NCBI RefSeq assembly: GCF_000003605.2
Contig: NW_003128868.1
Coordinates: 160,334-224,333 of the forward strand
Origin: Saccoglossus kowalevskii
Lineage: Eukaryota; Hemichordata; Enteropneusta; Harrimaniidae
Direction of reading: 5' to 3'
Length of the DNA stretch: 64,000 bases
The notes below the pieces were generated by a model. That model saw only the letters and a list, made by a program, of their open reading frames with translations, was not told the DNA's origin and searched no databases. Shown piece by piece: positions 5,300 through 32,560 of this stretch (its first letter is position 1; the number at the start of each line of letters is the position of its first letter). Both the position numbers and the translations under genes were made by a program.

Positions 5300-5305
5300 T
5301 TTATT
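5300..5305 (-). promoter_or_regulatory. Poly(A) signal AATAAA
   Basis: On the minus strand AATAAA lies about 58 bases after the TGA stop of the U-box exon. It would give the SAM-VWA-E2-U-box gene a short 3' UTR. Confidence 0.5.
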
Positions 5306-5362: not shown

Positions 5363-5638
5363 TCATTGTTGCCACCATGTATCTGCTTTAACACGCACGG
5401 TTCTGTATTCAGTTACAAGTTTGAATATACCATTCTTTGGCTTCAGTTGCCCTCTCTGTAGTGGTTTCTTTGCCATAGGGTCATAGTTTGACTTTGACAG
5501 ATGATCTTCAATAGCATGTCTTTCGTACACGTGGCCGTATGGCGTCACTACCGGATCAACAAATAGCTCTTTAGTTAAGGGGCAGATTAAATGAGATGGC
5601 AGGGGTTCGGCCTCTCTCTCTGCACTGCCGAGTATCTC
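5363..5638 (-). CDS. Exon 26: C-terminal U-box (E3 ligase domain) and stop
   Basis: Ninety-one codons and a TGA. After EILGSAEREAEPLPS comes a canonical U-box: LICPLTKELFVDPVVTPYG, then HVYERHAIEDHL and YDPMAKKPL. U-boxes recruit charged E2 without zinc and act as ubiquitin ligases. Here the E2 is in the same chain, immediately N-terminal. The protein ends KADTWWQQ. Confidence 0.92.
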   Translation of the reverse strand, partial: EILGSAEREAEPLPSHLICPLTKELFVDPVVTPYGHVYERHAIEDHLSKSNYDPMAKKPLQRGQLKPKNGIFKLVTEYRTVRVKADTWWQQ

Positions 5639-8600
5639 CTGGAAGAGAGTAAACTATCGGTAAACATATGAAATTTGGTCATTTGCACACGAGCTAGATT
5701 TGGGAATTTGTCATAATGTTCATTGTGTAACTCGCGTAATAACAAGCATGACACCTTACCTGTTGACATTGTCGCAGGGTCCTGTACGCATGGTTCTTTG
5801 TATATTGTTTTGCAGTTTCATAATATTTGTCTTTGTCAGAAAAGTATTCTTCTGCCAACACGCTGTGAATATTATGACAAACATTTCGATATTCAAATTA
5901 ATTCTCCCTATAAAGCTGGAGTCCATATTAAACGCTTCACTTATCAAAATTGTGAATACATCATTGCTTTCATTCTTGCATGTTTCTCATGTGATTTATA
6001 AACAATTTCAGCAAATCGTGCAGATTTTGCACTTGTTATCTTTTCACATTCTGTCATATAAAAGAATTGCCATCTTGTAAGATTATTACGAAAATCTTGT
6101 ATCTGATGGGATAACTACTGGCTTAAATTCTATTTAATGCAGAGAAATGATCTTGAGAGTTCTCTGTAAGGATTGCCATTTGTCATTGGGTTTATTTTTA
6201 CACCATTGTGTTGTCCGGTTTATTGTTTAAATATACTCACCTATCTAGCGGATCATCAGGTTCTGGAGTGATCAGCAATCCAAATACGTACATTAAAATA
6301 GTACTGACTGGTGTATCTGGGGTATAATTTCGATCAAAAATACTGTGACAAATACGACCTGCAACATTGATGTTACAGTGGTATATCTGGAGTTATTGTT
6401 AAAGACTGTGGTATTTGAATAACTGATCTATGTTAAAAGAAAATATGTTGGAACCTGTACACTGAATATATCAAAGTTACAACTAACTGCAACTTTGTTT
6501 TGTTGCATATTATCAATGTACATCATCCCATTTGCCATTTTGATTACACGTGATATATTACCTGACATAGTCATCCATACATGGTTGATTCATTTCAGTA
6601 ATTTTTTGATAATTGTAATCGATTATGCAGATTATCACAAGTGTTGTGAAGTGAAATGATAACTGTATTGCTAAAAAGGATACAGGTGTGAGGAATCTAA
6701 TCTGAGGGGGAGATAATGGATACTTGTCGGGGAAATCGACATATAGTACAAATACTCCTCCCTCATATGGTGTGTTCTGTGGGCCAACAAGAAGTACGCG
6801 CCAAAATCCAATGCTGTAATAAAGAAAACAAAGATCAAACACTATGTATGCATCACTGTTCAAGTACAAACGCTATTTGATGCTAACTAGCTTTAACCAA
6901 TGTAGTATTTCGCTACAACTGCATTGCATGTCCATGTATGTGAAAACAGGAAGTGTTATGGTGATTTTAACAAATGTACATTAATATAGTTGATACAAGT
7001 GTAGGACGAGTGGTTCTTCCATGAGATTCACTTGTTGGAGTTTTCACTGGCAAGCCTGGTGCAAAATGCTTCTTTTGAAATCTTCATATAATTTTGTACA
7101 ATTTTCACAAACTCAATGGTATTGGTGTATTTTGTGGATCATGAATTAAGGAATGGTTTTCCTGGTACAAGCAATCTAGTCAATATTATTTTGAAAACAA
7201 CTGGTTTGGTTTGTATGTATATGTGTGAAATTGAAGGTCCCATGAAGCCGGCAAAGTACATGACTGTCACAAATGAATCTTAAGCTGATGATAAACATAT
7301 TACATTTATCTAAAATTGTGGATTGCGCTTTGAAACTACTTACTTATTGTCGCACGGGTAAATGTGTATATGTGCATATGGTTCTCTATTATAAGCTGAG
7401 ATTTCCCGGAGAATTCTCTTCACACGAGCGGAAGCAGTTGATAAACCTTTAGGTGGATCAGTGGCAACCTTGTTCAGGATTCTATAAGTATAATATTCTA
7501 ATATTTAATCGCAAACCAATGATTTGTTAATGCCTCGGCTAATGTGCCCAACTCAAATCAATTGAGAAAATATTGTGTGTGACATAACAATACATGATAA
7601 TTGTTGAATTTGTTAGACAATCATTTGTTAATATTAAATATGCAAAAATAAATTTGATTTTACACGTGTGCTGGTGAAACAGGTCGTCTTATGTCATCAG
7701 GGACATTGTATCCGGGTGGTTTGTCATAGTCAATTGCCATGTATTTGTAAAGATCCATCTGTAATACAAATTAATGGATACATTAAAGCATGGAAAGCAA
7801 AAATATTACAGTGAAATAATGTTTATATCTAGTAGAATTAGTTTAACATGGGTACTGACGCCAAATCATTACTTGCGTTCAATAGGCACATTCATTTTCT
7901 CAACCTGTTGGTTCATATGTTGAGACAAATTTGCTAAGTATGCTGCAAAATCTTTGCAAATCGGGCAAGCACTACACACGTATTCAATATTACATAGTAT
8001 TATGTTATTGTTAATCCGTTGGTGGAGACCATAAGCAAATTGAATATTTAGTAATGATTGTTAAACTTTCTAGAATAAACAAGAATAACTGAAACTAAAT
8101 TTTAAAAATTTGAGTAGCTTAGATGTAATGTTAATCATGAGGATATTATTAGAAATAATTTTAGTTTTGACACGCAAGGTGTAATTTGAGTTGACAAGTT
8201 GGAAGTATTCTTACTTGTGACATGTAATAAGTATTTTGGATTGCGACATGTAGGTAGTAATTTGAGTTGTGACAAGTAGGAAGTAATCTTTCTTGTGACA
8301 AGTAGGAAGTAATCTTACTTTTGACAAGTAAGAAGTAATCTTACTTGTGACAAGTAGGAAGTAACTTGGATTGTGACAAGTAGGAAGTAACTTGGATTGT
8401 GACACGTAGGAAGTAATCTTACTTGTGACAAGTAGGAAGTAACTTGGATTGTGACAAGTAGGAAGTAATCTTACCTAAGACAAGTAGGAAGTAATTTGGA
8501 TTGTGACATGTAGGAAGTAATCATACTTGTGACATGTAGGAAGTAATCTTATTTGTGACATGTAGGAAGTAATCATACTTGTGACACATAGGAAGTAATT

Positions 8601-9318
8601 TGAGTTGTGACATGTAGAAAGTAAACTTATTTGTGACATGTAGTAAGTAATTAGAGTTGTGAAGCATATTATAAGATGTAATTTGAGTTTTTAGTAACAT
8701 AAATACAATACTACTACAAATCGGGCCCTCTATTTACGAAGTACTCCTGTGACATAAATGGGTGACACTAAGGCCACCCAATTTGTTAATATCGGATTTG
8801 ATCTGCTGTAATCGTCTGTCAACAAAAACAACTATACAAGCAAACACAGTTGTAGATTTGAACGACCCATATACATCATTTTGACGTCACCGAAGCACGC
8901 CATCACTAGTGGGTATGTTATACAGTATTGTGACATTCAAAGGATAAGTATGTTGTTATCTATGCATATTTTAGTTGAGTAGAAATATCACATGGCCACT
9001 TCCCCTATGATAACTATGCTGATTAATGAACGATTGGCATAACATAAGACATTTTAGATTATGTGCAAAACAAATGTTATACACATTTTGATTATAGAAA
9101 TACTGTAAACGTCATTGGGGTATAGTAAATTTGAAATGTGAATTAATTGCTTGAATACCTGTTTAGTTATTGTCTTTGCCTTCGTCACTGTTTTTCGTGC
9201 TCTAACCGAAAGAACCGTTTCCATTTCAAATAATTTCAGAGCTTCTTTCAGAGATGTCGGATGAAAACAACAACCCCCTAAATTATTAATGTATAATAAA
9301 CATTTGTTTATGAATATG

Positions 9319-9372
<54 letters not shown>

Positions 9373-12300
9373 GTTGGTATTTTTCAATCACTATTAATAT
9401 TGTAATATAAAACCTACCTGTACTTTTGGTCAAACTCTTCAAGTTGTCATTAGCACCGCCAACCAAAACAGAGTCCAGGCAAACATTTGATCTCTGTAAA
9501 TACATATTCAAATAGTCAGTTTAGCAATTAATATGTAAAATAGTCCTTATTAAAAGTGAAAAATGCCTAGGTTCTAATTTTCAGAACTAACTAGAACACA
9601 TGTTGGAAGTTTGGCGGCGTTATAAATTTAATATTTTGGTCCCAAAAGACGTTTTTTAAATACATAGAGTACATAGTGAAGTCACACCAGGAACACAGAG
9701 ACTGTCAATCGTTTACATACGAAGCTACACAGACATCGAAATTTTTGAGCAAATTTTTCTCTCTGTCGATTTTTGGAGAGTTGTCAAATGATGACAGTTG
9801 TGAGGATGGAGCATTCATAATTGGAAATATTGGCTCGATTGAACCATATAGATGGATTCAAGCCTGCTTGACTGAATAACTTGATGGGGTGGTATATCAT
9901 GCGACAAATTAATGACATCTTCAAGTGCACAATGCCCACCCATATTGAAGAGACATGTGATTTATACAATTTATTGCCCCTTGTAAAAAGGTTTCTTAGT
10001 TTCATTTCAATGTATTTGTATTATGTTTAACAATTTCATTAAATTGCTGTATTGGTTTTGTAATGATAATGACACAAATATACTAAAACGAACTCTTGGC
10101 TGACTGATTGTAGTATTATCAAGGATTACCGGGTATTATACATCTTTCACCGTAACGCTATAAGTTACGGCGTGCCGTAATTTTGTGGTATTTTACGGGG
10201 TATTTTCACCCTACCTTACAAGGACAATGCGATAGTACGCCGTCGCATCGACCTCTGCTGCGCATACTCTGAGGTATCCTCGTAATAACCTTATATTATT
10301 TTCAATCAAGCAATAGTGCTGTTCTTACAGGATATATGATTTTATTAGCACTATGGGTACTGTTACCACCATTCTCAGTACACCTAAAGAAAGCCTCGCG
10401 ATAATGGACGGCATCTAGTCTAAAACACTGGCCACCCAAAATCATATATATATATAGGAAGGTAGTCGATTATTCCAGGTGAGAGTGTTCGATACTAAAC
10501 GATGAGTTTGTAGATATATATATATATATGTGAGTGAGGTACTCCATGTACCTTACGAAACAGTACTGTAGAGTGAACTTTACTCATGTAGTCGTGTCTT
10601 AATGTCTCTGTCCACGTATGTATATATACATACATGTTAATTTAATTCTACCGCAAAACAACATATATCTATATATAACATTACATTTAAAAATAATACA
10701 ACTGACACTTTTTATGAACAGACTTACTTGTAATGAGGTTGCAGCTTCCACTATGGATTTTTTCGAGACATTGTCGTAACCATCTGTCAGGCATAAAATT
10801 CTCCTGCAGGCAAACAATATTGTAAAATAAAACGTTATAAAAAGATTATTTTTTGTTTATAAAAAATACAGTTGATTGATCATCTCTTTCCAAAACAGGA
10901 GATACAATATGTGTGCCGAAGTAATCTATACCCACACGATATTGATATGTCTATACTGTATGTAACTGAAAGTTGAATAACCTTTTGCAATTAGGATAGG
11001 TCTCACCAATTTCGTTAAGTTGTGACACTGCATTTATAACTGCATCATACATTGCAGTTGAATCTCTTGGAAATACTTGGTCAACTTTCTCCTAAAATGA
11101 TTTCAATTTATTGAAGGAAAATAATTATTAGTGAGCAACTTCAATGATTTATATGTAAACTAGCCGAGTGATTGACAAGACCAGAGTAGTAAAACAATTT
11201 TCTACAGCAATAAATGACATGTCATGACGTTATTGGCTACAATTTTCTACTGTTAACTTTAAAACAGCTTGCCCGAAAGTTTCAGTGTTATTTTAAATGG
11301 CAAGTCATAAAGCTGACTGCTATGAGGTCAGTGTAGCAGGAGGAGGAGTTTGGAGAATTATTTATTGATGGGCGAATTATGTTGCATACTAATTTATTAT
11401 GTTACCTACGTACATACTTGCTGCTTCAATTTAGTAATAGGTAACACAATTCCCCCATCAATAAGTAATTGTTAAAATTCCACCATCTGTTGCACTGACC
11501 TCTTAGCAGCATTCCAATTTTAAAACAAACAATATTAAGTGGTAATATTTTTCGCTCACTTTGAAGCTGTTCAATGCTTCAGTGCATTCATCAACAACCA
11601 CGATGTCTGTGCAGAATGTTGTCAGACCGATTACATGCCAGAAATCATATGCTATACTTCTATCTGCAAAGGCATGGAATAAATGCTTGACAGCTTCGAT
11701 CTTTTTCATTGACTGTCTACAAATTAAAGATGACAGGAAAATAATAAAAAACAAAGATAATAGTATACACGAGTAATAAATATGAAGTTGACATTATGTT
11801 TTTCATTATCATTTTCATATTTTTTTACCATTATTTCCCAAGTTGCATCTGAGATACCGGGATTGACTAACCACAGACTAGTCATGATGCGACAGACAAC
11901 TCACAATTTGGGCATTGTTATTTTTATTTGAGATATTGACAAGCACCCCCAAAATGCGCGACCCATTGTGCATGGTGAGGAATAGTGAGCAGATCTTGCC
12001 CTACATGCAAAATTTTGTGCCGCCGCATCTGATTCAACATGTAACTCAATCGCTAGAGTTACTTTTTAAAGAAGACAAATCCACAGTATAGCTGCAAATA
12101 GAGAGGATGGCATTGAGCAAATACAGTCACCCGGAAATGAACAAATCAACAGCGTAACTGGAATCTTTTTTTTCAAAGCAAGTTCATGTCACAATTATCC
12201 CAGTGAAATTTCTCGTTGACTTGAGAGACTATGAGTTCACAGATGAACCATTAATGACATACTACCCTGAATAACACAAAACTACTTTTTATTGTATTAG

Positions 12301-15300
12301 GTGGAAACAATTGTTTGAATTTGCAAAAAGAATTGATGCGTTAGACAAAAAGAGCTCATTCCTAAAAACCTTAATACAGTTCAACAGATTCTGTTGGTTA
12401 CGTATGGTATTTGGCATATCCATGGTGTTTGAACAAGTTTAGCATAGACAAGACCAAATGATTGAAGGATGTAAATCCATAGTTGATTATACTGACTTAT
12501 AGTGAATTGTGAACCATTATGAAGTCAAGCACTATGAGACAGTGAGTCCATCATCAAACAAATAAAAAATGCATCATTCCAGGACTGCAAGTTGGGACTG
12601 ATCAGTTTGCATTTTGTGGAAATGATTATTTGTCACAGTTCAATTACTTGGAGGTTGACTAATCGAACGACACAACAGAGAAAAGCTCAAAAGACGACTT
12701 GCTTGTAACGGGATATCTGATACATGATGAATCATTCCTAACAATCAGCACTGCAATGGAGAGGTAGAAAAGTTATTAAACCAGAAAATAGCATGAGAAA
12801 GACGGCTGGAATAGATCACAGACTATCAAACCATACTGGATTTTAGAAAAAAAACTGAACTCTAGTTCAGTGCCATGCAGATATTGAAAAACAGTGCAAG
12901 ACAAGCGCACTCCTATAGCTAATGACCATATATCTCAATACACTACAAACAGGAGATACTGTCAGGAGAATGCCAAGAACTGTAATCTGTAAAAAGACCT
13001 TAGACATACATGAACACATAATTTTAAAACGAGCCACAAATTAATAATTGTATACCTTTCAGTGTTCTTAACACGGTAAGTTTCCATTTATTCTCAATAT
13101 TTTGTAACTATATATTTGTCAAAATGCATATGTAAAATCATCTAGTCAAGCGAAAATCAGATGATTTTTTGTAAATTATATAAAGATTTAAGTTTTCTGA
13201 AATATTTATTACCAGCGAGCTGACAACTTACTTTTCCATATTTAATAATCATGCTTGCGTAACAAGACATAATGAATATTAATATAACTCACTTCAAACA
13301 TAATTCGGCCATTGAAGCACTTATGTCTAACAGCACCTGCATACAATAGAATATAATACATTGCAAATAATATACATTGAATAAAACAACTGTATGTTAC
13401 ATCATAATACCTGTGTAACAATGTTTGTAATATGTACATAAGCAACAAAAAGATTAATATTTCAGAGATGCCTTAGTCCCGGGGGGGGGGGTACTTGCAA
13501 AAATTACTGACATGGGTGTGTAGCTGACTGTTTGAAACCCCTACTCCTTATCAGACAGAAACAAACTCAAATTTACAAACTGTGGGTATTTGACACTCCT
13601 TTTCAGACTGTAAGCATACTAATAAATGGCACCAATGGAAAGGCAGGTGGGCTTGAAAGGCAAAATGCAGTCATCAAGTTTCACGCACAATCAAAATGAA
13701 GTTACAAAAAGATGAATTCAGCTTCAATTTCTCCCGATTGTTGAATCACTCAAGCTCTAGAAACAGTCTTTGGAAAATATGGACCCCTTTTCAGACAGAA
13801 ATAATAAAATAAGCCTTTTTCAGACAGACAGGGAAAATAAGATACCCTTTTTCAGATAGAATTGGTGAATTTGGGACCCCTCTGGCGGCACATATAGCAC
13901 TTCAATGTGAGTACCCCGCTAGGGCCTTAGTCCATATGTTACTTACAACAATTGCTTCTTGTGGCTCTCTTGTAAACTTTGCATGGGTGTGCTTTGCCGT
14001 GGTGCAACTATACTCAGAAAATGGATGATCCTTTAAACTAGAAATAACAAGAAGACAAGCAAAACCCATTTAGTTTTGTTTTACTTTGTGACTGTTAAAC
14101 TTTAACAATTTGAAATTTGTCGAATTTATTTTCATATGTTAAATTTAGTATATTTAATGCATACATAATTTCGTTAGTGCTGTTTAAAATGACAATCACT
14201 TACACAAGAAACGTGATTTGTGATTCTCCACACCCTCATATATGAAAATTAGTAAATGTTACGTTAGGCAGATTTATGCAATAAGTTAGGTCAGACATCG
14301 CTGGCCAAATAATATATTATTCAAATATCCTAAATAATAGTCAAATTTTCATTTACACTATCAATAATAAATAGTATATGGTTAAGTCATTAATGTGATA
14401 TCTACCATCTATGTGACCCTGTAGTGTTGGCATTTGTTTACCAGTCCTACAGCTTCTACAGTTCGTCGCCTAACAAACTCAATCTATTGCAGAAAGTGAA
14501 AATGTGATCTTTAACGCAATGCATGCCAAGGCGCCGAAATACTTTACATTACGTATGAATGAAGTAAAAGTGATATGGACAGCATTGTGTTAAATTGTTA
14601 TAAAATAAACATGACGTCATGTGATAAAGTAATGGAGCTAATCGTAATACCTGAGTGCTAAATCATCTAGTTCGTGATATTCATCGGCCATCTTTAATGG
14701 ATTGTGTACAACTACTTTGATGGGGCCTAGAGATTTTGCCCGTCTCTGGTATATGACCACAAGAGCTGAAATTTTTCGAAAAAAATTACAAAATGTTGAA
14801 ATTAAGTCTGCAGAACAGGCAGATAGATATAGAAGCAATCCTTAAAGCGTGGCTTCGCAATCCCAAGGATTGCACCAATGCGTATGTAATTTGCATGATC
14901 CACCCAGTTGTTTACTTGGTACACAGCTATTATCATTTCAACCGAAGGTGTTAATTCCATAAGCTAACGTCATGCATTACGCTATTATCCGATTTGAAAG
15001 GACTTATTAAATCGCGTTCAACACTTACGGTGTCCCCGCAATCTTTTTAAGGTATTTTTCTTACTTGCATCATAGAGCTTCTTATTTCCGTGTTTACAAC
15101 GAAAATTGTGGTTTATTTTAATGACATACACAATGTATTGTTAGCACATAGTACACCGTGTGCCATAATGTGTCTTGCCAGCTAGGCAATAATGACGTTA
15201 TGCAACGTTAAATAAAAAAAATACTTTGTGTTGCGGCTGTGCGGCATACCCAGTTGCCCGACGCCAAATATACACGAATAAACGTGCAACTAATAAGTTA

Positions 15301-18300
15301 CAATACAAAGACACGCATACCTTTTTTACGCAATGTTGTCGGTCAACAATCATTTCATTGCGGGGATATAGATTAGGGAACATACCATTTTTGCGGGATC
15401 TTTAATTTTTTTTGTCTCGAGTCACATTTGTACTTTTGAAATTGCCGAGAACGTCATATATCAAATTCGAGAAGCATTCGCATATTCAAAGCATATAGTC
15501 GGGGATTATTTGTTGACGAACCCCTCGAACGAGCCCCGCTATTATCATGACCAGCCAGGCTCGTCACATCCGCTAATCTGGGACAGTACTCACAGCTTGG
15601 TTCGTCATCGACAGTAGGGTGAAAACACATTAACATTGCTCAGAAATTATTAATTAACATCGAAATTGTATCGCGCAAATATTCATGTTTGTGTATGACA
15701 GGAAAATAAAGCATCACATGCGTTAAGATTGCCTGAAAGAGTGATTTAGGGGAGTACCCTGATGCGATGTTTCACGCCTTAGTTACATACTGAAAACCGG
15801 CGGCCATCTTTCCTTCTATACATCTGGACCCGCGGTTCAACATCAAATAGGACAACTACTTACCCTTGTGATCAAGTGTCAAACATGGAACTGGTACATT
15901 TTCTTTTAGTTGGAGAGGGGAGTAGATTTTTAAAAACTCGAACTCTGAAATTGTCTTTTCCAAGTATTCAACTGACATAGCTTCTATGTTACTACATCTA
16001 AAGTAAAAATAATGCAAACACCTGCTATTAACAGAAAAATAGAATAATCTCTGTTCATGCCATTACAGTACTCAGATGTACTTTTGATTGATAAATATTG
16101 ATATCAATTAAAAAAGTAATCCACATTACTTGTGTTTATATCCCGGAGGCATGGGCCATACGTAACATTCTGTGAAACTATACGGCCAGCACTGCAAATA
16201 TCGTTCAATTTCACATGCAGGTTCGAGGTTATCAGCTGCAGCAGAAGGTAGAGAATATCCCGCAATTATTTCGCCATCTGTCGATAAATATAATATAATA
16301 ATATAAATGCTGCTGTGTATGACACGTACTACAATTAAGCAACAATACAGGTAACACCCTATAAAATGGCAATGGTGTGTCTGCACTTTTACATTCAATC
16401 GTAATTTATACAATAGAATAACACCAATTTGCAGAGAATGCACAAACAAATCAAAGGGCTCACCACAGATAAATAAACCTACGTTATCCCAGTCCAATAA
16501 AAAATAAACAAAAAGTAAAAGCTGTTTCTAATATAGAGCTATGTTTGGGTTTTGTTGTGACCTTCTATTTTTTGAATGGCAAAACTCTTTTCACAGATAA
16601 ATTGTCGACCATTGTCCATTGTAATAGTCACAGGTTCCATTAGACGTTCATACGTCTGTGAACAAATAAGGCTATAACTTGTTTTATCGGAATTCTTGCC
16701 GACTCCCTGAAATGGTAAATACAAATAATAGTTATTAGTGGCATAATAATACAGGCGAGGGTGTTGTATAACATATTTATATATCAATCACCAGACCTTA
16801 TTAGACCCCTATGTAAACACATAGTCCATCAGTAAAAAACGATTTGTAAACTGCAGAAATTAACTCCTATCTAAAACATGATAGTAAGCATAGTTTCATT
16901 TTAGTCGAAACAAAAGACGAAAATTGAACAATGTATTTGGGGATATAGTTAAAACACGGACGTTATAAAGTACATGCATATTACGAACACATAAACACGC
17001 AAGACGAGATGAAATTGCGGGCAAATGAAAAATAAGATGGCTAAATTTAAATTTAAATTCAACATAGTTTATAACAGAGAAAACATTGAGTGGTTTACTC
17101 GTGTGTTTGAAAGTAATTAACAATCTTACTATAGTTTTGTCAGAGATATTTTTAGTTCCCTGTAACATTTCATAAACAGAAGATGGTTACAAAAACAATA
17201 CCTGATGAGGATATTGTATCCATATCTATTTTATTGATTTTTTATCGATTTAAATCAACATCAAATATTCCGCTTAGAGAATCATTTATTTTTCTGATAG
17301 AAAGGTATTTGTGTTGGTATTGTGTTGACATACAAACACAATGTTTGAATTTCAAATTTCATTTAGCCACAATGGAAAACTACCTTATATTGTCAATTAC
17401 TCATCTAGAATCGTCCAATAATTTCAAGAATAGAACAGTGACCTACCTTAGCACCATTGAGTATGTAAGCCCAGCATGCACAGGAATATTCGAATACACA
17501 TTCATCGGTAACACAATTTGAGAGCGATACTGAAATAAACAGGTAATTATAGATTCTGTGTACTCAACCATCAAAGTAAATAATTCACATTATGTCTATA
17601 TAAAAAATATTGTCAAACATACTGTTGTTTACTTTTAATTCATGTCACATTTATGTTCTGATCTGCATATAGCAAATGCACATGTTATAAGGTATGTCAG
17701 AAAGATATGTGTATCTGAGTGCAAACAATTGTTGATACTAATCGAAAGATAAACTCCGAGCCATAGTTTAATAAAATTAAGCAACGGTGCATGTCACTGA
17801 TACAGCTGAACATGTGGTCTTATTGGCCGACATTCCACCATTGTTGCCGTATTTATACCTTAAATGTCAGAGTTTAGTTTGTATTGTAATGTTGAAGTGT
17901 CAAATTTAGTAAGATTGGTTTGATAATCATTCAGATGGTTTGTGACAATCTAAATGCCCCTAGTTGGCCAGTTTGTTATTATATTCTAAAACACGTTGGA
18001 CAAAAGAACGATTGCATAAGTTGCAAAACATGAGCAGCAAATGATGAATATTGATAATAATAAATTACTCACCATTTGGTGAAGGTAGTATTCTTCTAAA
18101 CAGGAAATACAACCCTTCAATTAACGCAACCTAAAATAATCAAATAAAACAATGTACCTGGCACTTCTTAACGCTTCTGAACGAATTTGTACAAACGTAA
18201 ACAAAAAAATGAATCACCTTTTGTGGAAAACATGTGCTCTTTTGATGAAGTAGGTTTGCTAAAGAACACGCCAGGGCTGAACTCCCTGATAAATGTTGCA

Positions 18301-21300
18301 CATGGGCTACGATATCATTTATCTCAAAGTCACCTATATGTTGTATCTGAAAGATATTAAACAATTAACAAATTCAACTAGATTATAATTTGATATTTGA
18401 CATAGTGGAACCATACATACATTATAACAAATACACAATTCTGACCAAAATTCGACACTATACCTCCGTATTGATAGAAATTATGCCCCCATCGATTTTT
18501 TTTGGCAGAAGCTGCTTATGATGATGAAGTGATTAGAGGGGGTTGGGTAAGGCAAGTACGGCTTCACTTTGTAAAACATCAAATTATCACCTTAGTAAAT
18601 TTGTTAATTTTACTAGTTTAACCATACTTGACTTACATCCAAGTCGATTGAAATTCTTACAACTCCTGAAACGAAAATAGCACATGTAGGTGTTGCGCAA
18701 TCTATCAAATATAAGTTGATTGAATCCCCAGGGGCACAATCTAAATTCAGAGTAACATTGTTGCATTCTAGTCTAGCATCACGAAAATAATTGTTCACAT
18801 AATTTACATGGATCTGGAAACTTGTGTGCATATTGCATGATGTCTGATACAGTGGTAATTTTAAGAAATTTCAATCCCAGCTAGATCATTGAACGATACT
18901 TACTGCATGACCTAGATCATAACATACCCTGATATCACATGTTTCAACTCAATTTTCCAGTGTCATTTATGGTTTATATAGGGGTACCTGGCAACATGAT
19001 TAAATTTTATGAATCCATAGATTTCCCTCACCCAACATTAAAATCATTGTGAGCGGCTGTTATGATGCTAATCCACAATGAGATAAAATCCAATCCTGTT
19101 ATTTTTTTTAGCGGTCCAATGTGTCAAAAGAATCCACAGTCACGAGTATTAAGTGGTATCCTTCACAGGCAGGAGTGGGATGTGTTACAATTTATTAAAC
19201 ATATCCAAGATATTGTTGTATTTCGAATTCCTATTCCAGCATTTATTCACATGAATGGATATTTGTTTCACTTGCATGTATTGAAGTCTTTATTGAGTAT
19301 TAGGTTAATCGGTTTTATTAATGTTTTTCACATGGCCTTTTCAATTCCATATGCCACCTGATTTGCAAGAAACAACTTGTAACATGGTGCAACAAGAGTA
19401 AATCAAGTGAGCGACATTGTGTTCACTTTGACAAAAAGGCTGAAGCCCGTAAATTTATGATAGGTGATACAATTTTACTGTTATGGCTCACAGCAACAGA
19501 CAAGTTCAGATTGCAATGGAATGCCCTTTTCTAGTTATAGAACAGGTGGGATAGGTTGATTATTGAATTGATAAAAAGGGTAAAACCCTTGCATTATATA
19601 AAATATGGGGAAAGCAAGGTGAAAGGTGAGAGTATAAAGAATGTTGGCATTCATGGAACGCTACTTTGTGTATACCTAGGTTTGGTCATGGAACGACCAG
19701 ATGATGAAGGAGAGGGTTGACCTCATTGAGTTTGTCCCCTTGAAATGACAAGAGTCAACCAATGATGTACATTTGTGTCCTAATTCAGATAGCAAAATTA
19801 AAAAGATGAGGGATATACGCTGACACCTTATCTTATATGCCTGGTAGGTCAAATGTAGGTGTTCATGGGATCAAACTTACCACCGATTACCCAGTGAGTT
19901 TCAAGGCGTATGCTAATCCCTAATGCTTTACAAAACCATCATTGAAAAGGTTCAAGAGATGTCCTGTATGGCCATTATTGAGCACTCTGATTTCCGCCAA
20001 TTGAATTGTATTAATGTATTAGATGTTGAACCGATGCCAAACCCCGAGGAGCTTTTTTTCACATCTAGCAGAGGAAATGTATGTGACAAAAAATTTTCTT
20101 ACATAAGGCTTTTTGTGGATTTCATTGGCAGATGATGCCAAACCGCAGACTGCATCATTGACACTGGTAGGTCAGTACAAATACAGTATCTTAACTTGTG
20201 GACGAATAGTACCTACCCTGAGTGAGTGTGCCACAGACTCAATGGGAAGACCAATCCACTGGCCGAGATTCATTCATTCACTGTGACTTTGGGGGAACCT
20301 TGGTTAAGGTCCTCAGGTGATTGTGTTTGACCGAGCCTGGTTGATAGGAAGATGGCCGCACAGCCGTGTCATGTAGTCCCAAACAGAAAATTACTTCTGT
20401 GGCAAAATTCACTATGTGTCAGCACTTGCACTTGCACTTGCAATTTGCACATTCAAAAAACTGTCGCATGGCACAAAAACATTAAATAATAACAAAAAGT
20501 AGCCTAAAAAACTGGTTTAAGCCTAACCATCTATGTGTTACATTAGCTTCACACAGCTACAGTTTGTTGAATACGTCATTGGAATGGCGAAATATGCACT
20601 ATACGCACAAAAATCGAAGCATTACAAGCAACTTCACAACAAAGGACTGTGCACCAGGTGCATGCATTTGTTGGGTTTGCGGGATTCTATGATAGGTTCG
20701 GTTCTAACTTTATTTTAATTGCTGCACCATTGTATGAGCTATTGCACAAGGGTATGCCAAACAAAAATGGGAACAGAATCATCAAGTAGCATTTACACGG
20801 CTAAACAGTGCCCTAAGCACCTCCTATTTTGAACATTTCTGCTAAGATCTGACACAGCCCCCAATCCTACATTTGATGCATTACCTAAATATTATGAAGA
20901 CGTAGCATTTCCACTTGCTTTTGCAAGCCGGAAACTTACACAGAGAGAATCACATCACTCAGTAATAGACAAATAATGACTGTTACACTTTCAGCAGTAT
21001 GTTGGATAGTATTTTGGATCACAAACCTTTAAAGTATATTAAAAGTGCACAATACACACATTACCGCGTTATGAGATGGGCCCACGAACTCCAACTTTTT
21101 GTTACCGAATAGTAGCAATCATAACGTGGGAGCAGACTACCAAAATAGAGCTGTGTCAGACTGAATGTATACAGACCGGATACAGTATGAAAAAGATGGG
21201 TTGTTGAGATAAAATTTAGTAACAAGTATTACAAGATATTGCTGAAATATAGTAGTAAAACGTAAAGTAAATATCGTCCTCCCTAAATTGTTGATATCTA

Positions 21301-24300
21301 TTTATTATATATCTTCAAAAGCTTGGCTACATTTGTCCATATCATATTACCGGTAATGAGTTCACGCGACTTGATATTTTTGTGGATTACACATGTATAT
21401 TCACATGCATTCCACTATGTGTGGTGTTCATACGATTGCCAATAACATCTGAAAAGAATTCTAAACTATAACCTTCAACTCTAAATAGACTCACCAGCAC
21501 ATAAAGTGATGAATAGAAGGCAGAGAGTCCACACTGCGTTTGATTAATATGAGGCTTCACATCAGCTTTGAAGAGTTCAATCTTTGTTTCATAAATCGGT
21601 CGAACGTCAGACGATATTGCAATCATAATCGTATCACCATCTTCTATGTGACTGTTCCTCAATGATTGTCCGGGAATCACTTCGGAGGCGTACATTCTAG
21701 AAGCGAACCTTACACTGTTTATTCATCATATACGCTATCGACGATTCGCTTCAAATTTTATCCAAATGTTATTAAATTCTATTCTGTGTCAATATATGCA
21801 ATGTGGATGTAAATAGGGTTGAACTAACCATATAGTTTTCATACAGTGATACATACAATGATTCATTTTGACCTTACAAATTCATAATGCGAATCATATG
21901 ATAAAATTATTTCCACATATCCCAAATGAATTTCGCACCACGTCGTGTTCGATACGCGATATATCGCATGTACACTACACAAAATTCGAAGGCGTTTTGT
22001 GTGAAAACTGTAGCATTCCAAACTATATTTAAAATTTATTTATATGTTATTCAATCGAGGTTGTTACAATATTGTCTCATTTGCTTATTACAGAAACATG
22101 TGTTATCACTTTTGAAAAATAAAGCGCAAGTAGTCGAATAGTCGTTCCATTTAAGGTCAGTAAGTATAAACTATATTTACCGTATTTTCTGACAGGAAGT
22201 TGGAATATCAGTCAGTGAATATATCTTTTGTTTCAGCGTCTTTTAGGGAAAAATTACAAAAAGGTCGCTAATCATTAAGACACAAGCAAAATCATAAATC
22301 TTTGAGTTCAATGCTATTTCACGATATACCATTATATTGTACCATTCTCAAAAAATATTCTAACAAGAACCAGGAATCACCATACTTGCACTAGTTTAAA
22401 GGGGAGCAGAGGTCTGGTTTTTGACACACTGTACATAAAATTAGTTTTAACTCGTACAATATTTATTTACTCACTGTTTACTATAGCCAGAACTCTGTAA
22501 TGTCTTCACTTTCAGGTTAGTTCTTCTGCCGATTTCTCGCAACCAACAACGTATTTTTTATTTGGGATTTCGAGAAACTTAACATGAATCGTTATAGCAT
22601 TCATACGTTATAGCATTCAACACCTCGCCATGTTTCAACTTTTAAGTTGTCAGTTAACAAGGTCTTTCATAGTAGCATTTCTATGGGATCGACGTACTAG
22701 AATGAATTGGTTCAATTATCACTGTTCACTGATGACATCATTTGGTTGGCCCTCTAGAGACGAAATGACGCCAGGCCAAGTGGATGTTTGTCGTCTGCTT
22801 CACCGCCCGTTTTATACCCGATATTTAGGGCATTTCGCTGCACATACACGTTGTTTTTGTCGACAGAATTCATTCATAGATCTCAAATTTCATTACAGAG
22901 TGTCAAAAGCCAGACCTCTGCTTCCCTTTAATGTGCCATTTGATGTTGAAACAGGAAAATGGCACACTTCAATAATTGTTTACATTAAATAGTGGATGAA
23001 AATAAATTAATATGAAACTAATGCAGCACAATTTTAAATTACCTCATCAGTGTCTTGCATGAGATCAACATGCACTTTATAAGTACGGCCCATCATTATA
23101 TGGACATTAAGTACATCAGCACCTTCTGTATGATCAAGTTTGTCTAATGTTGGTATACCATCATCTTCTGACCGCCTAGAATGGAAAATTGCAAAAAGCA
23201 GGGCACCAGACTCTATCTTCCTCTGGTCTAGGGTCCCTATGTGAGAAAATATAACAATTCGCTGGTCATAGAACTGTTTCTGAAAATACTAATATACTAG
23301 TTGACTAACTGAATCTTGAATAATTAAAGTATACGTATATTCAATCAAAAGAAACTTGGGTGGAGAATGCACAGAATAGTAATTCAACTGAGTTAGGATT
23401 AAGGTATGTAACCTAGTTACACCTGACAGACCTGCTTGGCGACTAATTGCAATGTCGCAATGAAAACCCCACAATGTGAATTTCTAAATATGATATCAAT
23501 GGTAAAATTATGGCTACGCAGTTGGGAATACATGACATGCAATTGATCTTTTAGGCAAACATTGTATACTTACAAGTGTTGAAGAAAACGTCATAAGTTA
23601 ACGGAGTTCCATTTTCATCATACAACTGAGCGTCTACATCACATGATTGCCCTTCTTTTTGTAGTATCAAGTTAACCAATTCGGACATGGTAAATGCATA
23701 AGGATTCAAACCATTGATCTGTCGTGTTTCTTGTCTAATTATATTAGTGAATGTCTTATAATGCAGCACGTACTCGCAATGTTGCAAGTCATCTGACGCG
23801 ATGGAACTGGCGGATGACGACATATCTGTTGTCGTTGCTGACATCGAATATGAACTACTCATTGACAAGCGTGTAGCTGAACCAAATGAATCACGCATCC
23901 GAACAAAACGGTTAATCTCAACTGTTGTCATACCTGTAATTTATTTATACAAAATTGTTATTTAAACAATAATGAACGACCATAATGGCGAAAGCTCACT
24001 TTGAGCGACATATATGGGCGAGGAGTAAGCCAAGTACATTGAACGTTTGCTTGAGTCAATTATGATTTGGCGGGGAGTTCATTATTGTTATTATGTTACA
24101 GCGTTGTCAATACCAGTGGATTTGTTGCCACTAAAAAGCGGAACGTGAACGTAGCATTTTCACAGCCCGTGAATCTGCATAACTTAAAATGTCTATCTGG
24201 AAATTGTTTCCACAATGACAAACTAAGAAATAAACTATTTTTAATCTATCAAAAATATTTGTATTCACAAATTTACATCATGAGTGGACGAGAGAGTGAT

Positions 24301-26159
24301 GTGGAGTAGCATTGTGTTGATCGCCCGAGCGAACGGCACGCTGTGGCTGGTATGCTGTTTCAGTGACCGCCACGGGTTTGCGATACTCTATGCTAGATGG
24401 CAGCTGTGGATCGACTGTACGTAGGGGTGTGTACCCGAGGTACATGTACGTAGTCGTATCATTACCCCATACTAGAAGTGTTTTCAAACCGTCAAGGTAG
24501 ATGTTACTGACAACTGTCTTGTCTGTGTAATATTTTTTTCAAATTCGACGGGAGGCCGGTGACGAATACTTTGAAGCCAAACGAAACTTAGCGAGTGAAT
24601 ATGCTGAAAAGCTAATGGGTGTTATCCATCCTAGAAAGATATGATTTTAATCAGAATGTATAAATAAAAAAAATTAGAACACGGATACTTTTAATAATTT
24701 TAGGTTAGGGTTATTATATTTATAGCATAGTACCCGGCAAATAGTATACACACACCACACTTTTTTATTATCAAAATACGAGGGTTTATGAAATTCCACT
24801 GTTATGTATTCCTTACCTAAATTTGTCAGTAATATTGTTTAGGTAAATGTTTATTAACTTGTGGTAGTTATTACCACACATACAGGTAAATGTATAGGAA
24901 TTGCTTACACAGATTATAGATTAAAAACAAAACAATCAAAAAAGCGTCTCCTCCCACAACTCAATAATAAATATGTAAATCATGACTTCGTTTTGGCGCG
25001 GCTTTGTCACGCCATGAAACACTGTTTCCTATTGAATTCGGGAGCATAATTTCGCACTTTATAACCAATTGCGACCACACATCTGCGTGATTTTAACAGG
25101 CAGATACCATGACTATTCGTAATGTTTTGTATTGATCCAAGGGACAAACGGATTTTGAGTTTGCCGACGATGCGTTGCTGCTAAGTTGTTTTTGCCGTTT
25201 TCTCGGTTAAACAAAACAGCGATTTACAGCAACTGTAGACCTTTGATCTCGAGTTCTAGTGGACGCATAATACTAATTTTTCGCACAGACACTCATCGAT
25301 ATGTTCCCTCTCAAGCAGCTCTGGGATTTGTTTCGAAATTACGTTCTAATTTTTGAATACCGGAAAGAACCAGATCGCATTGTTTTTTCAAGATAGCTAA
25401 AAAAAAATATTTTCTCCAACTATCATGTAGTTACATATCCCAATCAACGCAGAATGGTGGTGAGCGTCGTCTGAAAGTCTGTTTTGTTGAAAATATTCTA
25501 CTAAATTCGTTTATTTATTGATTCAATTATTGTTTTTACCGAAAATGGCTTTTTGTGTTTACACATAGATCACGTGACTATACACGTACATACACACACT
25601 CTCTTGTCGAATTTAAAACCAGTGTGAAATAGGCTTTTTATCAATATATAGCTTTGTGTGGTTCATTACAATCATATTTATTATATATCAGTTTAGAAAA
25701 TCAATACAAAAACGTATACAGCATCTTTAATTGTGTTATTATATTGAACATTGAAAAGGAAAATTATAAATTGTAGACGAACTCGTAGTAGCATATGCTG
25801 TGGTGATCGCGTGATGCACTACTCAGGGCAAAGGTAACTTAAATACAGTGACCTATATATATAATTCCGATTAAGTAATGCGTCACAATGACTCATAGGA
25901 AAATAATTTGAGTGAATGCGGGTTGTGTATATGGTTAACCGTTCCTGGAAAATAGAATCGAAAGAGAAATATATATGTAGATCTCTAACTAGCGCGACTT
26001 ATTTAGCCGTGGTTTACCTATTGTTTTCAAATTGGCTTCCGTCACGTCATTAATGTCTTCAACAACATCAACGCCTAAGCTCCGCAATGCTTCTGAGTAT
26101 TTCTTCAATCGATTAACTCCTAATAATATGTCCAAGTCTTGAGGTGAGCAAGACGCCAT
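5363..26159 (-). CDS. SAM-like / U-box-like / VWA / E2 / U-box multidomain ubiquitination protein (whole gene, 26+ exons)
   Basis: Exons in order of transcription, each with an AG acceptor and GT donor: 26159-26018, 23933-23574, 23279-23043, 21696-21495, 18813-18637, 18346-18218, 18130-18073, 17529-17447, 17159-17130, 16706-16562, 16277-16130, 15997-15864, 14765-14651, 14037-13947, 13336-13293, 11716-11560, 11091-10982, 10803-10728, 9493-9418, 9277-9159, 7758-7664, 7481-7344, 6813-6684, 6386-6241, about 5769-5642, 5638-5363. Phases agree at all joins except 2/3, 3/4, 24/25 and 25/26. The product is about 1,170 residues with SAM-like (1-65), U-box-like (about 485-520), VWA (about 680-850), E2 (about 910-1085) and U-box (about 1090-1165) parts. 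No signal peptide or membrane span is visible, so it is probably cytosolic or nuclear. By inference it carries both ubiquitin-conjugating and ligase modules. I know no characterised protein with this full order. Confidence 0.88.
5642..5769 (-). CDS. Exon 25: C-terminal helices of the E2 (boundaries unresolved)
   Basis: The reading LLLRELHNEHYDKFPNLAR, then QMTKFHM, fits the last helices of an E2. The acceptor that gives this frame does not match the phase 2 end of exon 24. Its frame also differs from that of the U-box exon directly downstream, although only 27-50 bases separate them, which is too short for a usual intron. An assembly indel, a very short intron or real damage would each explain it. 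Confidence 0.55.
6241..7758 (-). CDS. Exons 21-24: ubiquitin-conjugating enzyme (E2, UBC) core
   Basis: Exons 7758-7664, 7481-7344, 6813-6684 and 6386-6241, all in phase. A short leader (MDLYKYMAIDYDKPPGYN...) precedes the UBC fold. RILREISAYNRE gives helix 1 and GFWRVLLVGPQNTPYEGG the central sheet. FPDKYPLSPPQIRFLTP is the usual E2 run, followed by IYHCNINVAGRICHS. The last motif holds the HPN box as HCN, and the catalytic cysteine sits ten residues after the histidine, as in active E2s. TPEPDDPLD is the normal stretch ahead of the C-terminal helices. The asparagine and cysteine are kept, so thioester chemistry should be possible. Confidence 0.92.
8194..8661. repeat. Minisatellite, 18 units of 26 bp
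   Basis: Eighteen head-to-tail units of exactly 26 bp, most starting ACAAGTAGGAAGTAA or ACATGTAGGAAGTAA. Two main variants of the unit's second half (ATCTTACTT and ACTTGGATT) sometimes alternate, which hints at a 52-bp higher-order unit. It lies in the intron between the VWA block (exon 20) and the E2 block (exon 21). Open frames across it are by-products of the repeat. Confidence 0.95.
9159..14037 (-). CDS. Exons 14-20: von Willebrand A (VWA) domain with intact MIDAS
   Basis: Seven exons (14037-13947, 13336-13293, 11716-11560, 11091-10982, 10803-10728, 9493-9418, 9277-9159), all in phase. The metal-ion site is complete. DISAS (DxSxS) spans exon 15, DSTAMYDAV in exon 17 supplies the threonine, and LCLTDGYDN in exon 18 supplies the late aspartate. 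Exon 19 ends the fold with VCLDSVLVGGANDNLKSL. Exon 20 carries FHPTSLKEALKLFEMETVLS. VWA domains with a MIDAS bind partner proteins through Mg2+. Here the domain would be a substrate or scaffold receptor in front of the E2, by inference. Confidence 0.9.
9319..9369. repeat. (TA)n microsatellite
   Basis: About 25 TA units in the intron between exons 19 and 20, some 50 bases from the exon 19 donor. Confidence 0.95.
12060..13020 (+). other. Degenerate, possibly once-coding intronic sequence
   Basis: A more GC-balanced stretch in the intron between exons 15 and 16, with broken reading frames on the plus strand that read like worn coding DNA. No domain is recognised. Its first half is shared with 43290-43800, as part of the segmental duplication, so it predates that event. 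Confidence 0.35.
13480..13924. mobile_element. hAT-like MITE with 8-9 bp target duplication
   Basis: CCTTAGTCC occurs at 13471-13479 and again at 13925-13933, immediately flanking the element. The ends are inverted: the left end runs through a G tract into GGGGTACTTGCA, and the right end, reversed, reads CCCTAGCGGGGTACTCACA. An 8-bp target duplication with C/G-rich inverted ends fits a non-autonomous hAT element. No transposase is present. It sits in the intron between exons 14 and 15, and its right end is only 16 bp from the 5' splice site of exon 14. Confidence 0.75.
14651..16277 (-). CDS. Exons 11-13: linker between U-box-like segment and VWA domain
   Basis: Exons 16277-16130, 15997-15864 and 14765-14651 join in phase with each other and with neighbours. 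They encode about 130 residues, including CEIERYLQCWPYSFTECYV, PMPPGYKHKC, an acidic helix SVEYLEKTISEFEFLKIY and VVVHNPLKMADEYHELDDLA. The function is not recognised. Confidence 0.75.
16562..16706 (-). CDS. Exon 10: U-box-like segment
   Basis: Forty-eight codons plus one base. The product contains YSLICSQTYERLMEPVTI, then MDNGRQFICEKSFAIQKIE. This lines up with the pattern LxCPxTxELMxDPVxxxxGxxFxRxxI of U-boxes, and with LICPLTKELFVDPVVTPYG in the last exon of the same gene. The proline after the cysteine is changed, so it may be a degenerate or structural U-box. Assignment is by pattern only. Confidence 0.55.
17130..17159 (-). CDS. Exon 9: 30-nt small exon
   Basis: Ten codons, phase 0 to phase 0, acceptor ATGTTACAG and donor GTAAGA. 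It reads GTKNISDKTI. This resembles the first residues of exon 10 (GVGKNSDKTSY), so exon 9 may be a partial duplicate of that start. Skipping it would keep the frame. Confidence 0.6.
17447..18813 (-). CDS. Exons 5-8: cysteine-containing middle region
   Basis: Exons 18813-18637, 18346-18218, 18130-18073 and 17529-17447 all join in phase. They encode a region of about 150 residues with scattered cysteines, including CAPGDSINLYLIDCATPTC, a helical stretch GSSALACSLANLLHQK, then ALIEGLYFLFRRILPSPNG and NCVTDECVFEYSCACW. No family is recognised. The clean phases and splice sites support it as coding. Confidence 0.75.
19060..21240 (+). mobile_element. Gmr1-like Ty3/gypsy retrotransposon (fossil)
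   Basis: On the plus strand, integrase-like pieces come first (about 19100-19560). Reverse transcriptase follows (about 19930-20160, with MPNPEELF and a worn middle, and again about 20560-20760). RNase H comes last (about 20860-21010, FASRKLTQRES). Integrase upstream of RT is the reverse of ordinary gypsy order and is the mark of the Gmr1 clade. It lies antisense inside intron 4 of the SAM-VWA-E2-U-box gene and is split by a SINE at about 20335-20515. It is heavily broken, with many breaks, and looks old. No LTRs recognised. Confidence 0.65.
20335..20515 (+). mobile_element. SINE copy (same family as 60276-60526)
   Basis: The segment starting GATGGCCGCACAGCC and running through TGTAGTCCCAAACAG and GCACTTGCAATTTGCACAT to an A-rich end is the reverse complement of the element at 60276-60526, with scattered differences. 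Its A-rich tail is short. It is inserted in the Gmr1-like fossil and is therefore younger than it. Confidence 0.65.
21495..21696 (-). CDS. Exon 4: middle region, unassigned fold
   Basis: Sixty-seven codons plus one leading base. Acceptor GCTTCTAG, donor GTGAGT. The text MYASEVIPGQSL...HIEDGDTIMIAI looks like a beta-rich fold with a turn at IEDGD, but I cannot name it. It ends in phase 0, matching exon 5. Confidence 0.75.
22181..22188 (-). CDS. Possible 8-nt microexon between exons 3 and 4
   Basis: A strong acceptor (CCAACTTCCTGTCAG on the minus strand) is followed by 8 bases and then a donor GTAAATATAG. Eight bases are exactly what is needed to turn the phase 0 end of exon 3 into the phase 2 start of exon 4. 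The join then reads E-K-I-R-M-Y-A without a stop. The match could be chance. RNA reads spanning exons 3 and 4 would settle it. Confidence 0.35.
22400..22927. mobile_element. MITE with 34-bp inverted ends and TTAA target sites
   Basis: The left end AGGGGAGCAGAGGTCTGG and the right end read in reverse, AGGGAAGCAGAGGTCTGG, continue to match for about 34 bp with a handful of differences. TTAA flanks both ends (22396-22399, 22928-22931), as in piggyBac-type insertion. A TA duplication is also compatible. There is no transposase. The open frame at 22630-22992 crosses the element's right end and is not a gene. It lies in intron 3 of the minus-strand gene. Confidence 0.8.
23043..23279 (-). CDS. Exon 3: middle region, unassigned fold
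   Basis: Seventy-nine codons (237 bases), phase 0 at both ends, with acceptor TTTTCAG and donor GTAATT. The product starts KQFYDQRIVIFSHIGTL and ends MQDTDE. It seems to continue the fold at the end of exon 2. A small exon may be missing between exons 2 and 3, or the assembly may carry an indel, because the phases differ. Confidence 0.75.
23574..23933 (-). CDS. Exon 2: end of SAM-like domain, Ser-rich linker, start of middle region
   Basis: Acceptor ATTACAG at 23934-23940 and donor GTAAGT at 23573. The exon opens with GMTTVEINRFVRMRD, which closes the SAM-like fold begun in exon 1. Then follow a serine/threonine/methionine-rich linker (residues about 65-90) and a region ending LYDENGTPLTYDVFFNT that resembles a small ubiquitin-like or adaptor fold. 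I do not recognise it with certainty. The exon ends in phase 1, which does not match the phase 0 start of the next exon found. Confidence 0.8.
26018..26159 (-). CDS. Exon 1: start and first part of SAM-like domain
   Basis: The chosen start is the ATG giving MASCSPQDLDILL. An in-frame ATG further upstream (26240) would add 27 residues that look unlike a domain. The exon ends after 47 codons plus one base at G|GTAAAC. Residues such as LGVNRLKKYSEAL and DINDVTEANLKTIG fit the helical pattern of SAM domains, which are protein-protein interaction modules. The split glycine codon is completed exactly by exon 2. Confidence 0.8.
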
Positions 26160-31464: not shown

Positions 31465-32560
31465 TTATTTTTTTGCCTTCATCAGTAAGCTAAACATGGC
31501 ACGTCTGGCCTGGTTTGTCTGTTTACATATTGCTTTTCTGAATTTGTTACTATAATTGAATGTTCTGCCAAGATAAATATAGTCAAATATTACTTCAATG
31601 GTTTCATTACCAAACTTAAACGCGGGGAACTTTTTAACTTTCCCACGCGAGAAAATTCCAACCTTCGTTTTATTAGCATTTACAGTTAAATGCCATTCAT
31701 TACAATAAGTATAAACAGCATTTAGTGCAGATTGCAATTCTGTTTTGATTCAGACAGTACAATGGTATCATCAGCATATGATAAAGTGAATAACTTAAGA
31801 AATACTTCTATATCCTCATTACTTAAATATGTTTTAATCTCGCTAGCCATATATTTTAGAGCATTATAGTGATTACTAATAAAATACTCAAAATCGTTAA
31901 GATAAATAGCAAACAACAGTGGTTAAAGATTTCCACCTTGTCTAACGCCAACATTACAATTAAAGAAATCAGATTAAACGCTTCCGTCAATAACACAATA
32001 ATTTTCTTGATTGACATATTTTAAATAACTGTAATAATTTTACCATTTATATGGTTGGAGATTTGTTTAAACCATAGACTTGTCCTGTCAATCAGATCAA
32101 ACGCTTTTTTATAGTCAATAAAAGCTAAATATACCCGTTTCTTATTATGCAAATATAAATCAATAACCGAGCGTAGGACAAACATATGATCTAGCGTGAA
32201 TATCCCGCCCTGAAACCTGTTGCTCTTCACCAATGAACCCACACAATTCAAATAAGATGTCAGCCTGTCATTAATAACAGCTGTGAATAATTTGCCTAGG
32301 CAACTAAGTAGCGTAATGCCTCTGTAGTTGCTAGAGTCACTAGGGTCACCTGTACTCTTAAAAAATGGTTTATACAGCCCATTGTCCAGATGTAGGAAAT
32401 GTACCAGTGTCCAAAACTATATTAAACAATTATACATCAAAGGATATAATATCATCCCGACTGTTTTTCAGAAATTCATTTATAATTAAATCTACACCTG
32501 CTGCTTTATTATTATTTAACTTTTTAATTTGAGTCATAACCTCATCCACTGTAATGCTGA
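31465..32560 (-). mobile_element. LINE reverse transcriptase fragment
   Basis: Three overlapping frames on the minus strand show non-LTR RT motifs in order. NRFQGGIFTLDHMFVL is at about 32200 and FIDYKKAFDLIDR (motif A) at about 32120. YADDTIVLSES (catalytic box) is at about 31760, followed by WHLTVNANKTKV and DYIYLGRTFNYS (thumb). Frames shift at about 31720 and 31960-32030, so the copy is dead. The endonuclease and 3' end are not seen. A short region of TCTCGTGA-like repeats (32560-32645) lies at its 5' side. Confidence 0.85.

Follow-up and report, generated by a model that had tools for sequence, protein, structure and literature searches.

Introduction

The locus described here raises the question of whether a single animal gene can encode both a ubiquitin-conjugating enzyme (E2) and a U-box ligase (E3), and whether such a combination is a real and maintained gene or a product of gene modelling. 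It lies in a 64,000-nucleotide stretch of the Saccoglossus kowalevskii genome, the whole of which is referred to below as the window. The reading that we prefer, with a probability of about 60%, is that a single intact animal gene at this locus encodes an E2/E3 hybrid of 1178 residues, in which a cysteine of the E2 part (C1017) would be charged by E1 and transfer of ubiquitin would be aided by the U-box. The evidence bearing on this reading comes from the exon structure, the related genes in the same genome, the pattern of substitutions and the two catalytic parts themselves, each of which also bears on one or another rival explanation.

Gene Structure and Domain Order

The original prediction had described a gene of 26 exons, nearly all in phase; its start (26159) and stop (5363), on the minus strand, proved exact. 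From 26159 to 5363, the 26 exons splice to one frame of 3537 bases (1178 residues), the sole stop being the end of the frame, with GT-AG borders at 25 of 25 introns; an AATAAA stands at 5305, 57 bases 3' of the stop. Our first model comprised 25 exons placed by eye (exon labels E1-E25, among which E5, E10 and E13 correspond to exons 6, 11 and 14 of the final model) and had three joints out of phase, all of which were resolved via homologous exons of the sister genes described below: the exon 3 acceptor was set to 23236, the exon 17 donor end to 10982, and a 59-base exon (22181-22239) was added. After these sister-guided repairs all joints are in phase, so that the whole of the predicted exon set now reads as a single frame. 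For the joint between exons 2 and 3, a microexon had also been considered; it was abandoned once the sister genes pointed to a later acceptor.

The N-terminal half (like the rest of the gene, on the minus strand) begins with exon 1 (26018..26159), which holds the start codon and the first part of a SAM-like domain and has a 39% identical stretch in the sister gene on contig C685, followed by exon 2 (23574..23933), with the end of the SAM-like domain, a Ser/Thr-rich stretch and the start of a middle region; homologous exons of exon 2 are present on contigs C3729 and C685. Exon 3 (23043..23236, acceptor picked by homology) continues the middle region and encodes the first strands of a ubiquitin-like domain, the helix of which is provided by the added 59-base exon 4 (22181..22239, found via a sister exon of the same length) and the end by exon 5 (21495..21696). 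Exon 6 (18637..18843) is uncertain, as no counterpart was found in the sister genes and the frame holds without it. Exons 7 (18218..18346), 8 (18073..18130) and 9 (17447..17529) belong to the middle region, exon 10 (16562..16706) encodes a stretch with an unproven likeness to the first half of a U-box, and exons 11 (16130..16277), 12 (15864..15997), 13 (14651..14765) and 14 (13947..14037) form a pre-VWA region, the last of them adding the first VWA residues.

For exon 10, an alignment with the U-box of the family (hhalign) gave E 0.003 yet a probability of 10%; no Pfam match was obtained up to E 10, and a comparison with PDB returned two matches to ribosomal protein L2 at E about 1. Just upstream of this exon, an open stretch on the minus strand (16896-17186) contains GTKNISDKT, to be compared by eye with GVGKNSDKT at the start of exon 10, and is perhaps a decayed duplicate of the exon.

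A Pfam scan of the spliced 1178-residue protein matched ten families up to E 0.1, those other than the ones described here being relatives of the main domains or weak. The predicted protein begins with the SAM-like and ubiquitin-like domains, continues through the middle region and the VWA, and ends with the E2 and the U-box. A domain search had been proposed along with the original prediction, and three of the four domains named there (UBC, U-box and VWA) pass their Pfam cut-offs, whereas SAM does not: the SAM_TNK match (residues 17-57) scores 17.8 bits in the whole protein (0.0034) and, in a scan of the N-terminus by itself, 23.5 bits (6e-05), against a cut-off of 25. A SAM domain at the predicted N-terminus is likely, though below the Pfam threshold. 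The ubiquitin-like domain was absent from the domains first listed; its Pfam ubiquitin match (residues 211-280, 6.7e-05) reaches 23.0 bits and is likewise below its cut-off of 25.4, while the corresponding segment of the C685 sister, joined by eye, lies above it (9.3e-08, 32.2 bits).

The VWA domain extends from the end of exon 14 over exons 15 (13293..13336), 16 (11560..11716), 17 (10982..11091, donor set by homology), 18 (10728..10803), 19 (9418..9493) and 20 (9159..9277), where it ends. Its Pfam match (residues 688-855, 3.6e-06) scores 27.8 bits vs. a cut-off of 23.8, and all five MIDAS positions are present, as had been claimed: D693, S695 and S697 in exon 15 (motif D693-I-S695-A-S697), T768 in exon 17 and D800 (LTDG) in exon 18, these being kept in three of three copies. 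The VWA profile found one match in PDB, a chloride-channel protein (E 0.0015). Exon 21 (7664..7758) encodes the linker from the VWA to the E2, and the intron that separates it from exon 20 contains a minisatellite (8192-8651; 26-base unit, 17.7 copies, 81% matches).

Two retroelement pieces were seen elsewhere in the window, one at 31465-32416 (reverse-transcriptase match of 29.3 bits, just under the cut-off of 29.6) and one at 54954-57881 (integrase zinc-binding match), with reverse-transcriptase-like frames noted by eye near these pieces. A separate observation concerns the mitochondrial contig G000:C4830 (17037 bases; L055, L057, L058), where TGA stands for Trp in COX1, one AAA occurs at a Lys site and ATA occurs at sites that are presumably Ile in other animals; this codon use tentatively hints at a hemichordate-like code.

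Sister Genes and Selection

Relatives were sought across the 572-Mb genome with parts of the window protein. For the non-E2 parts, two further contigs, C3729 and C685, carry relatives (C2318 appearing only at E 0.73), and the C-terminal part yielded 28 matches, comprising nine in the window gene itself, ten on C3729 and nine on eight other contigs, the last group being confined to query residues 128-267, that is, to the E2 region. At C3729:165926-185604 lies a complete sister gene of 1049 residues, whose 25 in-phase exons run from the ubiquitin-like part to the U-box with the order kept. In this model, for which the window gene served as a guide, the entry phase agrees with that of the window gene in 24 of 24 shared exons, with lengths that are equal in 15 and differ by multiples of three in the other nine; the sister is without window exon 6, has a short and uncertain first exon and uses one GC donor. 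No SAM was found upstream of it in the readable sequence (158865-165926), and an N run occupies C3729:145001-158864, about 7 kb upstream of this gene.

Two partial copies complete the picture. The second C3729 copy (196673-206385) covers E10 to E25, all 16 of which are in phase provided that the first is placed by homology; it has an in-frame stop codon in exon 14 (E13). On C685 (about 66000-57300) the N-half alone was found. As N runs (C3729 189580-195600 and C685 28477-56148) lie about 1 kb from these partial copies, the missing halves of both cannot be judged. It is this division into halves that would favour a merger, by our model, of two adjacent genes, one SAM-like/ubiquitin-like/U-box-like and the other VWA/E2/U-box, and the frame of exon 10, which runs a few residues to a stop inside its intron, would fit it too. 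The nearness of the N runs, however, deprives the two partial copies of weight on this point; moreover, the exon 10/11 junction is in phase not only in the window gene but also in its complete sister, and the exon 11 acceptor occurs in three of three copies, with position and frame preserved in the two sister copies. Since this holds for the E10 acceptor of the partial C3729 copy as well, the C-half does not resemble a gene starting there, and we regard a merger of two genes as improbable. The predicted gene is, in our assessment, a real one, whose parts are retained in a second full copy, and it belongs to a small gene family of the S. kowalevskii genome.

Substitutions were compared between the window gene and its complete sister, giving pS 0.77 and pN 0.28 for the C-half (642 codons) and pS 0.77 and pN 0.38 for the N-half (359 codons), with no dN/dS ratio for this pair because silent sites are saturated. 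The E2 exons are the slowest at replacement sites (pN 0.19). For the pair of C3729 copies, the dN/dS values are 0.16 (C-half), 0.15 (E2), 0.14 (U-box) and 0.23 (pre-VWA region), with none computable for the VWA; as one of these copies has a stop, part of this history may predate its decay. Replacements are fewer than silent changes in each part compared, and the substitutions fit purifying selection on the predicted protein. That stop in one partial sister copy is also what a decayed locus might lead one to expect; the window gene itself, on the other hand, keeps 26 exons without a stop or frame break and shows pN well below pS, and decay of this locus appears highly improbable to us. With a second gene that has the same exon phases and with replacements much rarer than silent changes, the predicted domain combination is not a matter of chance. 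The second intact copy suggests that the combination is real, that it is under selection and that it can perhaps mark proteins with ubiquitin where no separate loading enzyme is present.

The E2 Part and Its Active Site

The predicted E2 occupies exons 22 (7344..7481), 23 (6684..6813), 24 (6241..6386, with the active site) and 25 (5760..5862, with the end of the E2 and the linker to the U-box). Pfam UQ_con matches residues 937-1073 at 1.9e-35, covering profile positions 1-139 of 140, and the alignment with UBE2D1 is ungapped over 149 residues (62 identical), UBE2D proteins being the best matches in PDB. The UBC fold with a catalytic cysteine (GRICHS) and an HCN variant of the HPN motif, both pointed out at the start, are borne out: C1017 (codon 6350-6348) aligns with C85 of UBE2D1, H1007 with H75, C1008 with P76 and N1009 with N77. 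The cysteine is conserved in three of three copies, and HCN replaces HPN in the same three, with H and N retained; some active E2s also depart from HPN. The surrounding active-site block, TPIYHCNIN.AGRICHSIFDR.YT, is common to the three copies and invariant save two positions.

Relative to UBE2D1, the changes in the window E2 include C in place of P76, S for D87, L for F62, E for N114 and, at S94-P95-A96, TPD (TSR in the two sister copies), while the D116-D117 pair is retained. Among the UBE2D positions that we take to be important, K4, R5, P61, P95 and D117 are kept and F62, S94, A96, D87, L104 and N114 are changed. The altered E3-contact residues allow two readings, a private interface or a loss of pairing, between which the sequence does not decide: they may belong to an E2 tuned to a private partner or else to one whose pairing is weakened.

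These same changes (HPN to HCN, D87 to S and those of the E3-contact loop) are what would be expected if the E2 were a fossil or scaffold, not chargeable or incapable of transfer, in a protein acting as an ordinary U-box ligase with a free E2 such as UBE2D. Such a loss is harder to reconcile with the retention of C1017, of H and N in the HPN motif and of the D116-D117 pair, with an active-site block shared by three copies and with the low replacement rate of the E2 exons, and we consider it unlikely, though it is the strongest of the rival explanations. An active E2 as part of one intact hybrid gene is the reading followed below; as regards the protein itself, the predicted enzyme activity is plausible.

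A pattern search of the genome contig collection matched 126 stretches, none of them a relative, and a search of viral contigs matched 25 stretches, one of which encodes a relative. This viral contig (L054, IMGVR_UViG_3300010885_064935) has 36% identity in the best segment, and its match spans query residues 10-163, hence the E2 but without the U-box.

The U-box Part and the Possible Pairing of the Two Halves

A canonical U-box immediately after the E2 had been claimed, and exon 26 (5363..5638) carries it: the Pfam match (residues 1101-1160, 7.3e-14) is above cut-off and starts 27 residues past the end of the E2 match (1073 to 1101), the exon also providing the C-terminus and the stop. The presence, in one gene, of an active-looking E2 followed directly by a U-box is thereby supported. 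The U-box profile matched 27 distinct sequences in PDB, including CHIP (2oxq_C, 1.9e-08) and UBE4B (2kr4_A, 2.8e-07), the top single match being a bacterial effector, LubX (5.9e-17 as the sum over two U-boxes). At the position that we take to be linchpin-like, presumably equivalent to R272 of CHIP, the window protein has K and two copies have R and G. Of seven U-box matches in the genome, the strongest (9.7e-17) lies in a 501-residue open frame at L001 (G000:C2923:102307-102519).

Five PDB entries (2oxq, 3l1z, 4wz3, 7xed and 9ye9) contain one chain that matches the E2 half and another that matches the U-box half. When the joined E2 and U-box alignment was compared with PDB, the best 60 of 273 matched sequences all ended by column 172 of 266, so that none of these 60 reaches the U-box; among the same best 60 of 273 are E2-RING chains (8v0d, 7jzv, 4r8p and an RNF168 series), which are fusions judging by their titles. 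A single-sequence fold prediction of the U-box exon has a pLDDT of 35 and gives pairing within one chain no structural support.

It is conceivable that the E2 and the U-box are both active and serve other partners, the fusion merely placing them together. The departures from UBE2D at F62 and in loop 7 agree with this, as does the short link between the two parts. Against it may be set the five PDB entries in which near relatives of both halves co-occur and the side-by-side arrangement of E2 and U-box in three copies, and we judge separate partnerships to be quite unlikely, more so than a fossil E2.

Proposed Mechanism

If the preferred reading of one intact gene for an E2/E3 hybrid is correct, E1 would charge C1017 with ubiquitin, and the U-box would bind the charged E2 of its own or of a neighbouring chain and speed the transfer. 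The SAM-like domain may bring neighbouring chains close, the VWA (via the MIDAS metal) and the middle region may hold the substrate, and the ubiquitin-like domain could either dock the protein on a ubiquitin receptor or restrain it until needed. The original prediction of a self-contained ubiquitination machine holds insofar as E2 and U-box are found in one predicted chain, but goes too far in that E1 and ubiquitin would still be needed and the U-box may use an E2 other than that of its own chain.

A broader interpretation, which we offer tentatively and believe somewhat less probable than its opposite, is that of an animal family in which a UBE2D-like E2 became fused with its U-box partner and the altered faces of the two co-evolved to form a private pair, working in SAM-assembled clusters that would require no more than E1, ubiquitin and a VWA-bound substrate. 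Such a family would perhaps descend from a VWA-U-box lineage believed to have disappeared from animals.

Comparison With Known Systems

No description of an E2-U-box or VWA-E2-U-box protein was found in the text retrieved from open-licence PMC literature, nor is the complete domain order mentioned in the portions consulted of PMC4327156, PMC6548493 and PMC11354881. The premise that E2 and E3 are normally separate and that no characterised protein has the complete order accordingly agrees, in its second half, with the literature covered, in which this order was not found, but needs qualification in its first, as E2 and E3 parts in one chain are already known from BIRC6 and UBE2O (PMC13061254, in part). 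As far as could be seen, the predicted protein is a new combination of known parts; it may already exist unnamed in databases.

BIRC6 and UBE2O are termed E2/E3 hybrids in the excerpted text of a 2026 compendium of human E3s, which gives BIRC6 as an example of an E3 able to transfer ubiquitin without an independent E2 (PMC13061254). The window protein, by its predicted sequence, is like them in having E2 and E3 domains in one chain and differs in having a UBE2D-like E2 with an adjoining U-box as the E3 part; the BIR domain of BIRC6 is absent from its ten Pfam families up to E 0.1.

Combinations of a U-box with the other domains are also on record. A VWA-U-box gene (Mb_UBOXa) from Monosiga, Naegleria, Trimastix and Spironucleus is described as ancient and stated to be absent from animals in the consulted part of Marin, 2010 (PMC3087547). 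Its proteins share VWA and U-box with the window protein and are set apart by their description there, in which no E2 is mentioned; a VWA-E2-U-box gene in S. kowalevskii would bear on that 2010 statement. VWA is listed among the extra domains of Chlamydomonas U-box proteins (PMC4378952, in part), and WDSUB1 and related SAM-U-box proteins resemble the window protein in the U-box and, probably, in SAM, but WDSUB1 has WD40 repeats and neither VWA nor E2 is mentioned for it in the passages seen (PMC3087547). No WD40 family occurs among the Pfam matches of the window protein up to E 0.1, and identity with WDSUB1 was not found.

With respect to its single parts, the closest E2 is UBE2D (UbcH5), from which the window E2 differs by HCN, S for D87, changed E3-contact residues and its being embedded within a long protein. 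The U-boxes of CHIP and UBE4B are significantly like that of the window protein, and to our knowledge neither of the two proteins carries an E2. TPRs in CHIP and the Ufd2 core in UBE4B (PMC3087547, in part) are features of their own.

The nearest counterparts in arrangement are chains of PDB entries 8v0d (UbcH5B-MIB1 RING3), 7jzv (BRCA1-UBE2D3) and 4r8p (RING2-UBE2D3), each of which joins UBE2D and a RING protein and which we infer from their titles to be laboratory-made constructs; in 8v0d, by title and matched range, the E2 comes first, as in the window protein. Laboratories thus fuse UBE2D to RING proteins, and a natural E2-U-box fusion would show evolution's answer to the same problem, including whether a private E2/E3 pair can do without the general contact residues and what determines the range of substrates where neither E2 nor E3 is used by others.
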